From the NCBI RefSeq assembly GCF_000430845.1, contig NZ_AUMU01000007.1, positions 62,001 to 126,000 on the forward strand: a stretch of 64,000 nt of DNA, in the 5' to 3' direction. Source of the DNA: Chryseobacterium gregarium DSM 19109 (GTDB lineage: Bacteria; Bacteroidota; Bacteroidia; Flavobacteriales; Weeksellaceae). The position numbers and the translations under genes were made by a program. Shown piece by piece: positions 60,342-64,000 of this stretch. The notes beneath the pieces are model-generated. The model did not search any database, was not told the DNA's origin, and worked only from the letters and a program-made list of their open reading frames with translations. How positions within the stretch are numbered: the first letter of the stretch is position 1; each line of letters opens with the position of its first letter.

Positions 60342-61511
60342 TTATCCTCTTACGTTTGCTTTCAGTTCGTGTTCCAGCGTCATCAGATCCTGATCCAGCT
60401 TTCTTCTGCCTTCCGCTCCCTGCTTCTGGATCTGTTTTACCTCATTTAAGGTACTGATCAGTTTGGAAGTGGTTTCTCTTAACGTCTCCACGGAAACGAC
60501 CGTCTGTTCATTGGCTCTGGCCACATTGATCGAATTCTGGCCCAGACGCTCGGCATTCTTCTTTAAGATCTCTTCAGTGGTGGCAGAAACTTTCTGCTGG
60601 ATTTCAATGCTCTGCTGCTGCCTGTACATGGCAACGGCTAGCGAAAGCTGGTTCTTCCAGAGCGGCAGCGTGGTCGTTAAGATGGTCTGCGCTTTTTCAG
60701 CAATGGAAACGTTATTGTTCTGCACCAGCCTGATCTGCGGAAGCGACTGCATCATGATCAGACGGACCACTTTAAGGTCTGCCAGCCTGCGGTCCAGCCT
60801 TGCGATAAAATCCCTTTTGTCTGCAATCTCATAATCCTGGTAATTCTGCGGGGCGGCCTCCATGGTCGCAAGCTCGGCGGCTGCTTTTTCCATTCTCAGG
60901 TTTCCGGCAATCACCAGTCCTTCGATCTGTTTGATCGCATTGACATTGCTTTCAAAAATTGTCTGCAGTACTGCGTTGTCTTTTGTAGAAGTGATGATTC
61001 CCGCATTTACTTTATAGGCAATCTGGTCGATATTGTTGACGATCTTGTCATATTTTGCAAATAAATTCTCCACCTGCGTTATCAGTGTTTTCATGAACGG
61101 CAGCTTGCTTAAAAAGCTTTTGAATTTATTCTGGTTGAGTTCTTCAACATCCACGTAATTAAGCTCAACCAATAAATTATTGATCAGCTCTCCCACTTCT
61201 CCGGAATTGGAACGTCTTACATTCCCTAAGAAACTGTCACTCTGGTTAGAGAGTGTCCTCTGAAGATCGGCTCCGAAGTTGACGATTGATCCCGGATTGG
61301 TTTCATCGATGGAATCGGCAAGAACTTCATATTTTTTGCGTTCTTCTACCTGCAGCTGAGCCAGGTTAACGTTGCCGTCCCTGTCTACGACTACCGGTGC
61401 CGCTCCCTGAGATGCTGCCGGTGCAGGCTGTTGCTGTGGTGCAGGTTCAAAGGTTTTAAGCGGTTCAATCGACTGAAGCGGGTCTATAGGTTGGTTGGGT
61501 TGATTATCCAT
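60342..61511 (-). CDS. telA: TelA-family toxic-anion resistance protein
   Basis: The 389-residue cytoplasmic protein has a Pro/Gln/Ala-rich leader (about residues 1-45) and the TelA/KlaA helical fold: ILADSIDETNPGSIVNFGADLQ near residue 62, FLSKLPFMKTLITQVENLFAKYD near residue 140, MEAAPQNYQDYEIADKRDFIARLDRRLADL near residue 220, and QSLPQIRLVQNNNVSIAEKAQTIL. TelA proteins occur with TerD-type proteins in stress and metal-response operons; the exact biochemistry is not settled. It starts five bases after the TerD gene. Confidence 0.92.
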   Translation of the reverse strand: MDNQPNQPIDPLQSIEPLKTFEPAPQQQPAPAASQGAAPVVVDRDGNVNLAQLQVEERKKYEVLADSIDETNPGSIVNFGADLQRTLSNQSDSFLGNVRRSNSGEVGELINNLLVELNYVDVEELNQNKFKSFLSKLPFMKTLITQVENLFAKYDKIVNNIDQIAYKVNAGIITSTKDNAVLQTIFESNVNAIKQIEGLVIAGNLRMEKAAAELATMEAAPQNYQDYEIADKRDFIARLDRRLADLKVVRLIMMQSLPQIRLVQNNNVSIAEKAQTILTTTLPLWKNQLSLAVAMYRQQQSIEIQQKVSATTEEILKKNAERLGQNSINVARANEQTVVSVETLRETTSKLISTLNEVKQIQKQGAEGRRKLDQDLMTLEHELKANVRG

Positions 61512-61516
61512 AGTGA

Positions 61517-62071
61517 TTATTGATACATTGATACAAATTTGTCAAGGCCTTCTCTCTGTCCGCTTCCTACAGCTTCGAATTTCCATTCACCGTTTCTGTT
61601 ATAGATCCTTCCGAATTCCACAGCAGTCTCAATGGAGAAATCTTCGTCCAGTTCATATTTTAAAATCTCTTCATTGGTCTCGGTATTGAAAATCCTGATA
61701 AAAGAATTTCTTACCTGTCCGAAATTCTGTCTTCTGGCATCTGCTTCGTGAATGGTCACCACAATTGTGATTTCCTTTATGGCCTCATCAATTTTGGTCA
61801 AATCAATATTAATCTGCTCATCATCTCCTGATCCGTCTCCTGTCAGGTTATCTCCTGTGTGAATAACCGCTTTGTCCGGAGATTCCAGGTTATTATAAAA
61901 AATAAAGTGGTTGTCGGAAACCAGTTTCTTATTTTCGCCCAGTAAAAATAAGGAAGCATCCAGGTCGAAGCCTGTTCCCGTTGAGGTATTGTTGACATCC
62001 CATCCCAATCCCACGGTAAATTTGGGAGCGTTTATATTTTCTCTCTGTCCTTTCTGTAAGTTAATAGCCAT
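61517..62071 (-). CDS. TerD-family calcium-binding stress protein (first copy)
   Basis: The 184-residue protein shows VGLGWDVNNTSTGTGFDLDASLFLL at about residues 20-45 and HTGDNLTGDGSGDDEQINIDL near residue 85, the two aspartate-rich calcium sites of TerD. It ends VGSGQREGLDKFVSMYQ. Its ATG lies inside the end of the phosphoribosyltransferase gene (11-base overlap), so translation is coupled to it. The five-base gap to telA shows one transcript. Confidence 0.93.
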   Translation of the reverse strand: MAINLQKGQRENINAPKFTVGLGWDVNNTSTGTGFDLDASLFLLGENKKLVSDNHFIFYNNLESPDKAVIHTGDNLTGDGSGDDEQINIDLTKIDEAIKEITIVVTIHEADARRQNFGQVRNSFIRIFNTETNEEILKYELDEDFSIETAVEFGRIYNRNGEWKFEAVGSGQREGLDKFVSMYQ

Positions 62072-62885
62072 AATATAATTCAGTTTGTGTTAAAGTGTTT
62101 ATATTGTTTTCGTATTCTTTTATTAAATGATAATTGTTGCTGATCGCCAGTTCAAGCAGGTGATCCATGTGTTCTTTTTTTACTTTAGACGAAAGATAGT
62201 CAAATTTACCTGATTCCAGGCCCAAAATATATTTTACAATCCGTGTATTGAACTGGAAACTCGGTCTCATCATCACTTCTGCAATATGTTCCACAGTGTT
62301 CACCGCATAATAATTAAAGAAGTTTTCAATTTTCGGATCGATATCAAAGTTCATCAGCTCAGCATAATACATAAAAAGGAAGTCTCCTTCCACGTCATAC
62401 TGCTCCAGAATTTTATTCACGGTATATTCATGACTTCCCGTAATTTTAATGTCGTCTATAAAAATACAAAGTTTTCCCCTGAGAAAATCTTTATCCAGAT
62501 AATACGTATCGTTGGAGATTAAATTTTTCCGGTCTTCAAAACTCAGATTTCCATAATCAGTCGTATAGGTATGGTTTCTGTTTATTTTTGATAAAATGCT
62601 TGATTTTTTTCCTTTTTTAAACAGATAAAAATCAAGATGCTTTTTAAAGTAAAAACACAAAAAATTGGAAGCCGTAGGAATGGCCATGTAAGGACTCGGC
62701 AGCACTACGATTTCTTTTTCGGAATCCAGGAGGCGGTTGTGCTCAAAAACAAAACCATTGAATAATTCTTTGGCAAATTTCTCTGCATACGCCTTGTCGC
62801 CATATTTAAAATAGCTGTATTCTTCAGGCGAAAAAGTAAACTCATCCGCCGAATGAATGGGATGTAAGCTGTATCTTTTATTCAT
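62061..62885 (-). CDS. Phosphoribosyltransferase-like protein of the Ter operon
   Basis: The 274-residue protein is read from the ATG at 62883-62885 (MNKRYSLHPIHSADEF); the longer frame to 62990 overlaps the HAD gene and is unlikely. The PRPP-binding motif of type I phosphoribosyltransferases is present in LCIFIDDIKITGSHEYT near residue 140. VVLPSPYMAIPTASNFLCFYF near residue 65 is the pyrophosphate loop region. Published comparative work on Ter systems describes associated PRTase/HAD genes that may make a nucleoside-like metabolite. It follows the HAD gene by one base. Confidence 0.88.
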   Translation of the reverse strand: MNKRYSLHPIHSADEFTFSPEEYSYFKYGDKAYAEKFAKELFNGFVFEHNRLLDSEKEIVVLPSPYMAIPTASNFLCFYFKKHLDFYLFKKGKKSSILSKINRNHTYTTDYGNLSFEDRKNLISNDTYYLDKDFLRGKLCIFIDDIKITGSHEYTVNKILEQYDVEGDFLFMYYAELMNFDIDPKIENFFNYYAVNTVEHIAEVMMRPSFQFNTRIVKYILGLESGKFDYLSSKVKKEHMDHLLELAISNNYHLIKEYENNINTLTQTELYYGY

Positions 62886-62886
62886 A

Positions 62887-63561
62887 TTATATTGGGTGTT
62901 TGAGTAGGTGTGCATTAAAGCCGAAATCCTTTGCGCCTTTATAATCCGCAACGGGATTGTCACCGACATGCAGAATCCGGTGTAAGTCAAGCGCCTGGTC
63001 TTTGATTAAAGATTTTACTTCCTGGAATATCCGGGGACTGGGTTTTGAACAGTTCATTTCATCGGAATACACATGAAAATCAATATACTGATCAAGATTT
63101 TCATTAATCAGGAATTTCCGCATCGTTTTGCCTTTGATAAAACCGGTATTGCTCAGAATACTGATCGTTTTCCCCTGATTTCTGATTTCTTCAAAAAACT
63201 GGTGTAAATTTTCAAAAATCACAACCGGTTTGTACTCGAGGAACAGGTCTTCGCTTTGCTGATAGAATTGATTTAATTTTTCTTTATCTAACTGCTTAAG
63301 ATCCACATCCAGTGCACCCAGAATGAGCAGATAGATTTCAAAAGTATCCACATTACCGCCGATAACTTCATTGATGGTATTGCAGAGATCATCATAATAT
63401 TTTACGACTTCCGCAACCTGGTCAATTGGTTTATTAACCTCAAAAAAAGAGGAGAACAGCTCCACTCTTTTGGCTTTGAATTCAGGATGGGATTTGATGA
63501 GGGTAAGCCACAGATCAAAAGAAAAATGTGAGTGATTACGGATGTCTATATCTGTTTTCAA
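62887..63561 (-). CDS. HAD-family hydrolase of the Ter operon
   Basis: The 224-residue protein probably starts with TTG at 63559-63561; no ATG is near, and the frame gives HFSFDLWLTLIKSHPEFK at residue 14. This is HAD motif I, but the usual D-x-D-x-T reads D-L-W-L-T, so the second (acid-base) Asp is Trp. Motif II is ILSNTG near residue 137, motif III Lys is in NCSKPSPRIF near residue 170, and motif IV is LHVGDNPVADYKGAKD near residue 193. It is the first gene of the operon and is followed after one base by the phosphoribosyltransferase gene. Confidence 0.85.
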   Translation of the reverse strand: MKTDIDIRNHSHFSFDLWLTLIKSHPEFKAKRVELFSSFFEVNKPIDQVAEVVKYYDDLCNTINEVIGGNVDTFEIYLLILGALDVDLKQLDKEKLNQFYQQSEDLFLEYKPVVIFENLHQFFEEIRNQGKTISILSNTGFIKGKTMRKFLINENLDQYIDFHVYSDEMNCSKPSPRIFQEVKSLIKDQALDLHRILHVGDNPVADYKGAKDFGFNAHLLKHPI

Positions 63562-63750: not shown

Positions 63751-63780
63751 TTTGACATTTAAATATTTTTTATAATTTCG
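63751..63780 (+). promoter_or_regulatory. Promoter of the leader-peptide/attenuator unit
   Basis: TTTGAC at 63751 and TAATTTCG at 63773-63780 are spaced by 18 bases, which fits -33 TTTG and -7 TAnnTTTG with one mismatch. The start of transcription would fall at about 63785-63790, shortly before the leader ATG. Confidence 0.6.
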
Positions 63781-63800
63781 CAATCGATTAACAATCAATA

Positions 63801-63887
63801 ATGTCAACAAAAATGATAAATATAATTACTTTAAACCACCCTATCAGAGCTGTGTACTTTGGTAGCACTAAATATTTATCTGAATAA
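63801..63887 (+). CDS. Putative 28-residue leader peptide
   Basis: A short open frame of 28 codons (ATG 63801, TAA 63885-63887) reads MSTKMINIITLNHPIRAVYF and then ends GSTKYLSE; an internal ATG at 63813 is an alternative start. It lies directly after the promoter, and 30 bases before an intrinsic terminator. The bases covering its last codons (TATCTGAA) are complementary to the terminator. I do not recognise the peptide. There is no run of a single amino acid as in classic biosynthetic leaders, so stalling could be specific to the nascent chain or to a few codons. Confidence 0.45.
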   Translation: MSTKMINIITLNHPIRAVYFGSTKYLSE

Positions 63888-63917
63888 CGATCGACCTTTA
63901 TAAATAAAAATATAACG

Positions 63918-63948
63918 AAGGCCCGTCTGTTCAGATAGGCCTTTTTTG
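63918..63948 (+). terminator. Intrinsic terminator of the leader unit (attenuator)
   Basis: AAGGCC (63918-63923) and GGCCTT (63938-63943) form the base of a hairpin, with TCTG/CAGA above an internal mismatch, followed by six T. The 3' side contains TTCAGATA (63930-63937), which can instead pair with TATCTGAA (63877-63884) at the end of the leader frame. Confidence 0.75.
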
Positions 63949-64000
63949 CTACCCCTACTTTCAGCTTTCGAATATTCGAGTTCGCCGTCTTTAATTTTAA

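Follow-up and report, generated by a model that had tools for sequence, protein, structure and literature searches.

A probable ribosome-mediated transcription attenuator upstream of a second, genus-specific elongation factor G gene in Chryseobacterium

Near the end of a 64,000-nucleotide stretch of the Chryseobacterium gregarium DSM 19109 genome (C6:62001-126000; the window, meaning the whole stretch that was analysed), a short open reading frame is followed by an intrinsic terminator. This arrangement raises the question of which gene is controlled and whether translation of the frame could decide if the terminator forms. A sequence-only reading had proposed a translation-controlled attenuator acting on a gene outside the window. 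Our analysis makes it very probable that the locus is a ribosome-mediated transcription attenuator controlling a second, genus-specific elongation factor G (EF-G), here called EF-G2.

Leader elements and the controlled gene

The following elements were annotated at the locus:

63752..63780, + strand: promoter, with the -33 TTG in TTGACA (63752-63757) and the flavobacterial -7 box TAATTTCG (63773-63780); from sequence
63801..63887, + strand: leader ORF, 28 codons and stop, MSTKMINIITLNHPIRAVYFGSTKYLSE; ORF translation, kept in 89 loci
63815..63823, + strand: outer stem, 5' arm GATAAATAT, codons 5-8; from folding, partner 63872-63880
63841..63849, + strand: inner (protector) hairpin, 5' arm CTATCAGAG, codons 14-17; from folding, partner 63857-63865
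63857..63865, + strand: inner hairpin, 3' arm CTTTGGTAG; from folding, overlaps the start of the antiterminator strand
63861..63884, + strand: antiterminator, 5' strand GGTAGCACTAAATATTTATCTGAA, codons 21-28, including TATCTGAA at 63877-63884
63872..63880, + strand: outer stem, 3' arm ATATTTATC; from folding, overlaps the antiterminator strand
63918..63947, + strand: intrinsic terminator, 12-bp hairpin (63918-63929/63932-63943) and T-run to 63947; from sequence and folding
63930..63953, + strand: antiterminator, 3' strand, comprising the terminator 3' arm, the T-run and the post-terminator TGCTACC (63947-63953)

The promoter-like pair described earlier is present, with TTGACA at 63752-63757 and, 3' of it by sequence inspection, TATAAT at 63771-63776, but the -7 box TAATTTCG is a better fit than TATAAT, the flavobacterial consensus being TAnnTTTG (PMC9723704). 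The 28-codon frame (63801-63887) and the terminator with its T-run were likewise confirmed. Sigma-70 and terminator consensus scans of the locus were uninformative for this phylum, and the terminator at 63918-63947 is missing from the consensus-scanner list, probably because its loop has only 2 nt.

The controlled gene, which had been placed beyond position 64,000, encodes an EF-G paralogue of 688 amino acids on the same strand. It starts at the equivalent of 64184 (L002:2184-4250), 184 bases from the window end and about 235 bases past the terminator, and a same-orientation EF-G paralogue is the downstream gene in every species checked. EF-G2 scored 830 bits against the elongation factor G model TIGR00484 (cut-off 659.4) and carries all EF-G domains in Pfam, including II-V, while the GKTT and NKMD GTPase motifs occur in 23 of 23 orthologues. 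The housekeeping EF-G of the same genome lies elsewhere (C8:190420-192522) and scored 1032 bits. Within Chryseobacterium, EF-G2 proteins are about 80-89% identical; the rest of the order showed only EF-Gs of ~52% identity or less, taken as housekeeping, and no EF-G2 was found outside the genus at E<=1e-230 in 395 Bacteroidota genomes. Three other identities or origins were rejected: the Bacteroides EF-G2 family (NF058620; 439.6 bits, cut-off 1000), a TetM-type tetracycline ribosomal protection protein (NF012153; 369.4 bits, cut-off 775), and a mobile origin, given that the best plasmid-borne EF-G relatives share less than 60% identity and that no match in those 395 genomes lies outside the genus at E<=1e-230.

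Two side observations concern the surroundings of the gene. Divergent neighbours on the minus strand (60342-63561), named by eye from sequence, comprise a HAD-type hydrolase and phosphoribosyltransferase-like, TerD-like and TelA-like proteins, so that by the same by-eye reading a tellurite-resistance (ter-type) stress cluster adjoins the EF-G2 module. In species with short spacers of 68-72 nt (L029, L143, L149, L151, L066), another inverted repeat, e.g. GAGAATAC..GTATTCTC, lies just upstream of the EF-G2 start, with a conserved AAAATCAACAATTTAAATT between this repeat and the ATG.

A covariance model of the leader matched 63 of 116 Chryseobacterium genomes at 163-207 bits, the next best score being 37 bits; matches at 27-37 bits were rejected as chance level. 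EF-G2 exceeded the threshold in 62 of the 116 genomes, all of them among the 63 with a leader, and in the remaining leader genome (G063) the start of EF-G2 is found 3' of the leader. Conversely, the leader is present at all 25 further EF-G2 loci that came from a protein search and were chosen regardless of the leader. Among 11 EF-G2-less genomes examined, nine have the two genes that otherwise flank the locus, for a SulP-type transporter and for a hydrolase of HAD type, directly adjoining, with EF-G2 absent between them. The tenth (G004) retains between the same two genes an EF-G2 remnant (L200:2405-2848; residues 541-688, 83% identical) without a leader, which is a joint loss of the leader and the front of EF-G2. 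Five pattern matches outside Chryseobacterium (L100, L108, L110, L117, L120) fall in unrelated sequence, have neither leader nor terminator and were dismissed as chance. On this genomic evidence, leader and EF-G2 behave as one unit.

The conserved terminator sits between the leader ORF and EF-G2. We searched for TTG or TTT followed after 17-23 bases by TAnnTTYG, and this motif occurs within 70 bases 5' of the leader in 86 of 88 species and within the terminator-to-EF-G2 spacer (68-337 nt) in one of 88. Judged from these motifs, EF-G2 is most simply transcribed by read-through and probably needs it. Alternatively, the leader and its terminator could form an independent gene for a small protein or a small RNA, EF-G2 having a promoter of its own. 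Such a gene would account for a conserved peptide, a canonical terminator and a spacer of up to 337 nt, but the near-absence of promoter motifs from the spacer and the joint presence and joint absence of leader and EF-G2 speak against it, as do two features of the pairing described below; we consider it very unlikely.

Competing pairings and constraint on the leader

The sequence-only reading rested on an octamer over the last leader codons, TATCTGAA (63877-63884), which is indeed exactly complementary to TTCAGATA (63930-63937) in the terminator 3' arm. Taken alone, this complement is not beyond chance, as the window leader still pairs equally well in 620 of 3000 synonymous recodings, and with a chance rate of ~20% we rejected the octamer as evidence in its own right. 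The full pairing is longer than had been noted: it spans 24 positions (63861-63884/63930-63953), and was matched by only 24 of 3000 recodings of the window sequence and by 119 and 26 of 3000 for two relatives. This extended pairing, together with its conservation, places the complementarity above chance. In folding, the antiterminator forms once the inner hairpin and the outer stem are blocked, both of which compete with it for the same strand; these two stems and the extension past the terminator had escaped the earlier reading.

Pairing was scored over 84 distinct sequences, with 21 of 24 positions counted for the antiterminator (ON) structure and the three mismatched ones omitted. The ON structure had 98.1% of cells paired, compared with 42-52% when the partner was slid by 1-3 columns, and the OFF structure had 96.8% of cells in standard pairs; for both structures together, the slid-partner control gave 37-52%. 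Among the individual OFF elements, the terminator hairpin had 94.4% of cells paired, with both-side changes at three pairs, the inner hairpin 97.6%, where 35 of the 84 rows carry an A-U<->G-C double change, and the outer stem 99.2%, with a single, independent compensatory UA->CG change in one sequence (L023). The antiterminator, whose 5' strand lies within the leader ORF, cannot coexist with the terminator, and these mutually exclusive pairings are conserved in evolution. The locus survived both refutation tests that the sequence-only reading had set: the frame and the octamer are kept across the genus, and a gene in the same orientation lies soon past the terminator.

The third base of codon 21 takes part in both folds, pairing with 63843 in one and with 63951 in the other. 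This base and its two partners change together in 89 of 89 leaders (A-U/U-A in 35 rows and G-C/C-G in 54), including that of L024, which is one codon shorter and was aligned in register. The covariation corresponds to two changes on the EF-G2 tree, which cannot firmly exclude a single event, the two whole-triplet events hinging on one weakly placed species pair.

The post-terminator TGCTRCC (63947-63953) is conserved in 89 species and pairs with codons 21-23; these bases are invariant except for the covarying A/G in GCTRCC. Because this pairing past the T-run can form only after polymerase has read through, it comes too late to influence termination. The fact that it is conserved suggests that it serves the read-through RNA in some other way, such as a locked fold, processing or protection. 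Pairing that extends past the terminator is the first of the two features that an independent leader gene would leave without explanation.

The second is the pattern of substitutions, which were counted by parsimony on the EF-G2 tree. Codons 9-13, which are unpaired, underwent 36 synonymous and 14 non-synonymous changes, an excess of synonymous changes over an expected share of 0.21-0.27 (p<1e-10 under independence), and this pattern shows that the leader frame is translated. By contrast, codons 23-24, opposite the antiterminator mismatches, show one synonymous and 23 non-synonymous changes, and codons 25-28 show no changes at all, synonymous ones included, in 88 aligned species. Counted by segment, selection thus preserves the peptide in the unpaired middle part of the leader and the RNA at its end. 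A functional peptide from an independent gene would need no such pattern, in which codons 23-24 lack peptide constraint while the pairing bases are fixed. As a separate observation, codons 2-3 (TCA ACA, 63804-63809) are near-invariant, synonymous sites included, and find no partner in the stems described; they perhaps serve accessibility of the start region or a small hairpin with UGAUA.

The same data bear on an attenuator controlled by a ligand or a protein and independent of leader translation. Large, conserved and mutually exclusive RNA structures would be expected of such an element, but the frame is kept and the synonymous preference (36/14) in codons 9-13 is strong. Moreover, every Rfam family stayed below its gathering score, the best cis-regulatory families reaching 13-21 bits against gathering scores of 47-115. 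We regard control of this kind as extremely unlikely.

Also as noted earlier, the peptide has no run of one amino acid, and a codon run for a single end-product amino acid is absent from all 89 leaders. This absence fits the target, which is a translation factor and not a biosynthetic operon. A classical attenuator sensing charged tRNA in amino-acid starvation, e.g. through the Ile/Thr codons 6-10, nevertheless has some points in its favour: in the window, Ile occurs at codons 6, 8, 9 and 15, synonymous changes preserve Ile-Thr at codons 9-10, and leader-peptide attenuation has been proposed upstream of amino-acid operons in Flavobacterium (PMC9723704). However, most species have Val at codon 15, an RNA stem overlaps with Ile codons 6 and 8, and the regulated gene has no biosynthetic function, so that starvation sensing appears unlikely. 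Under ribosome-mediated attenuation of EF-G2, what is sensed is probably the nascent peptide, over about residues 1-13, or the overall speed of elongation, and not one tRNA.

Ribosome position and the candidate trigger

The effect of a translating ribosome was modelled by setting a 30-nt footprint at each codon of 89 sequences, using equilibrium folding as distinct from co-transcriptional folding. The mean terminator probability was 0.91-0.98 with the A-site at codons 23-29 and 0.18-0.55 at codons 2-22, compared with 0.53 for free RNA. The constrained folding thus reproduces the proposal that a ribosome at the stop codon lets the terminator form whereas one held earlier permits read-through. 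A late-minus-early difference above 0.5 was obtained for 67% of sampled species, as opposed to 22% of synonymous recodings, and the switch is therefore not predicted in every species. Its operation in cells is what these models would lead one to expect.

The proposed mechanism would run as follows. Transcription would start just 5' of the leader frame. A lead ribosome that reached codons 23-29 would cover codons 21-28, the terminator would form and EF-G2 would stay off. With no ribosome on the leader, the inner hairpin and the outer stem would partly sequester the antiterminator strand, giving an intermediate state. A ribosome that was slow or arrested on earlier codons, especially on 10-16, where it would in addition occlude the inner hairpin at its 5' arm, would leave codons 21-28 free to pair with the terminator 3' arm, then with the T-run and the bases beyond. 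Polymerase would then read into EF-G2, whose product would help to restore elongation. The inducer would accordingly be a translocation or elongation block, with fusidic acid as one candidate, and EF-G2 may act as a bypass factor. Beyond the switch itself, we tentatively propose a negative feedback in which ribosomes whose translocation along the leader is slowed or blocked induce a block-tolerant EF-G paralogue, and in which the 24-position duplex, specific to read-through RNA, may have a second role, for example in the processing or protection of the EF-G2 message.

A narrower version of the attenuator would be a drug-specific switch, in which stalling of the leader ribosome by an EF-G inhibitor such as fusidic acid induces a resistant EF-G2. 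The 461-equivalent position of EF-G2 is Thr in 23 of 23 orthologues and Ile in three canonical, housekeeping EF-Gs checked, and the 464-equivalent is Lys; I461T, L461K and R464L have been reported in fusidic-acid-resistant staphylococci (PMC13295663, PMC12493156). Further precedents are the induction of fusB by fusidic acid via a ribosome stalled on its leader (PMC12493156) and the fusidic-acid resistance of one of the two EF-Gs of P. aeruginosa (PMC3832671). On these grounds, a response to EF-G inhibitors is a plausible candidate trigger. On the other hand, the other main contact residues, F88 and H457, are unchanged, and about half of the positions differ between EF-G2 and canonical EF-G, so single residues prove little. 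In addition, any ribosome at codons 2-22 gives antitermination in the fold scan, as a general elongation sensor would, and a general slow-elongation response, of the kind described for toiL (PMC12121999), would fit the scan at least as well as a response to EF-G inhibitors. Drug specificity is thus possible but doubtful.

Known attenuators and the meaning of the circuit

The locus shares with attenuators of the trp/his/thr type a short translated leader, the set of protector, antiterminator and terminator pairings, and the preference for termination when the ribosome is at the stop codon. It differs in the absence of a regulatory codon run, in its translation-factor target and in an antiterminator that continues past the T-run. 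It cannot be assigned to the amino-acid-operon attenuators, given that the codon run is absent from 89 leaders and the target is an EF-G and not a biosynthetic or tRNA-ligase gene.

Other systems respond to stalled ribosomes. The antibiotic-inducible attenuator of tet(M) in Tn916 has a short leader ORF and the same logic of a stall that disrupts a terminator. Similarly, in the antibiotic-inducible hflXr/rli80 system of Listeria, ribosomes that stall on a small ORF disrupt the intrinsic terminator before a ribosome-acting GTPase gene (PMC6310831). In contrast to both, the leader described here lacks the RLR motif, is confined to Chryseobacterium and precedes an EF-G recognized by the canonical model in place of HflX or a tetracycline protection protein. 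The fusB leader of S. aureus pUB101 is alike in that a leader arrest in the EF-G cycle controls a gene relieving an EF-G block, but its control is translational and its product an EF-G-binding protein, whereas here control would be transcriptional and the product is an EF-G (PMC12493156). The toiL uORF of E. coli topAI is likewise a multipurpose uORF at which stalls at different positions all relieve repression, though it acts on a ribosome-binding site and Rho and not on an intrinsic terminator (PMC12121999). Bacteroides EF-G2 (fusA2, BT2167) is also a second, non-housekeeping Bacteroidota EF-G under stress control, but it is controlled by the transcription factor Cur/BT4338 (PMC10294740), and the score of the Chryseobacterium protein in that family (440 against a cut-off of 1000) marks it as a different lineage.

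The open-licence papers searched contained no description of an EF-G gene regulated by ribosome-mediated attenuation, and the combination of an EF-G target, a leader without a codon run and an antiterminator reaching past the terminator is absent from Rfam and from the same literature. The principle of attenuation is already known; the combination of features is new within these sources. Overall, the observation made by the sequence-only reading is confirmed and its interpretation largely supported.

Most likely, Chryseobacterium keeps a spare EF-G that is switched on only when ribosomes slow or stall. If true, the circuit directly couples the speed of elongation to the supply of an elongation factor, and would give a testable function to the second EF-G kept by about half of the sampled Chryseobacterium species. 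The short leader, with its cleanly separated peptide- and RNA-constrained segments, would be a handy case of one sequence serving both a peptide and alternative folds. Chryseobacterium is known for multidrug resistance, and the circuit could point to a tolerance to translation inhibitors that is intrinsic to this genus and inducible.
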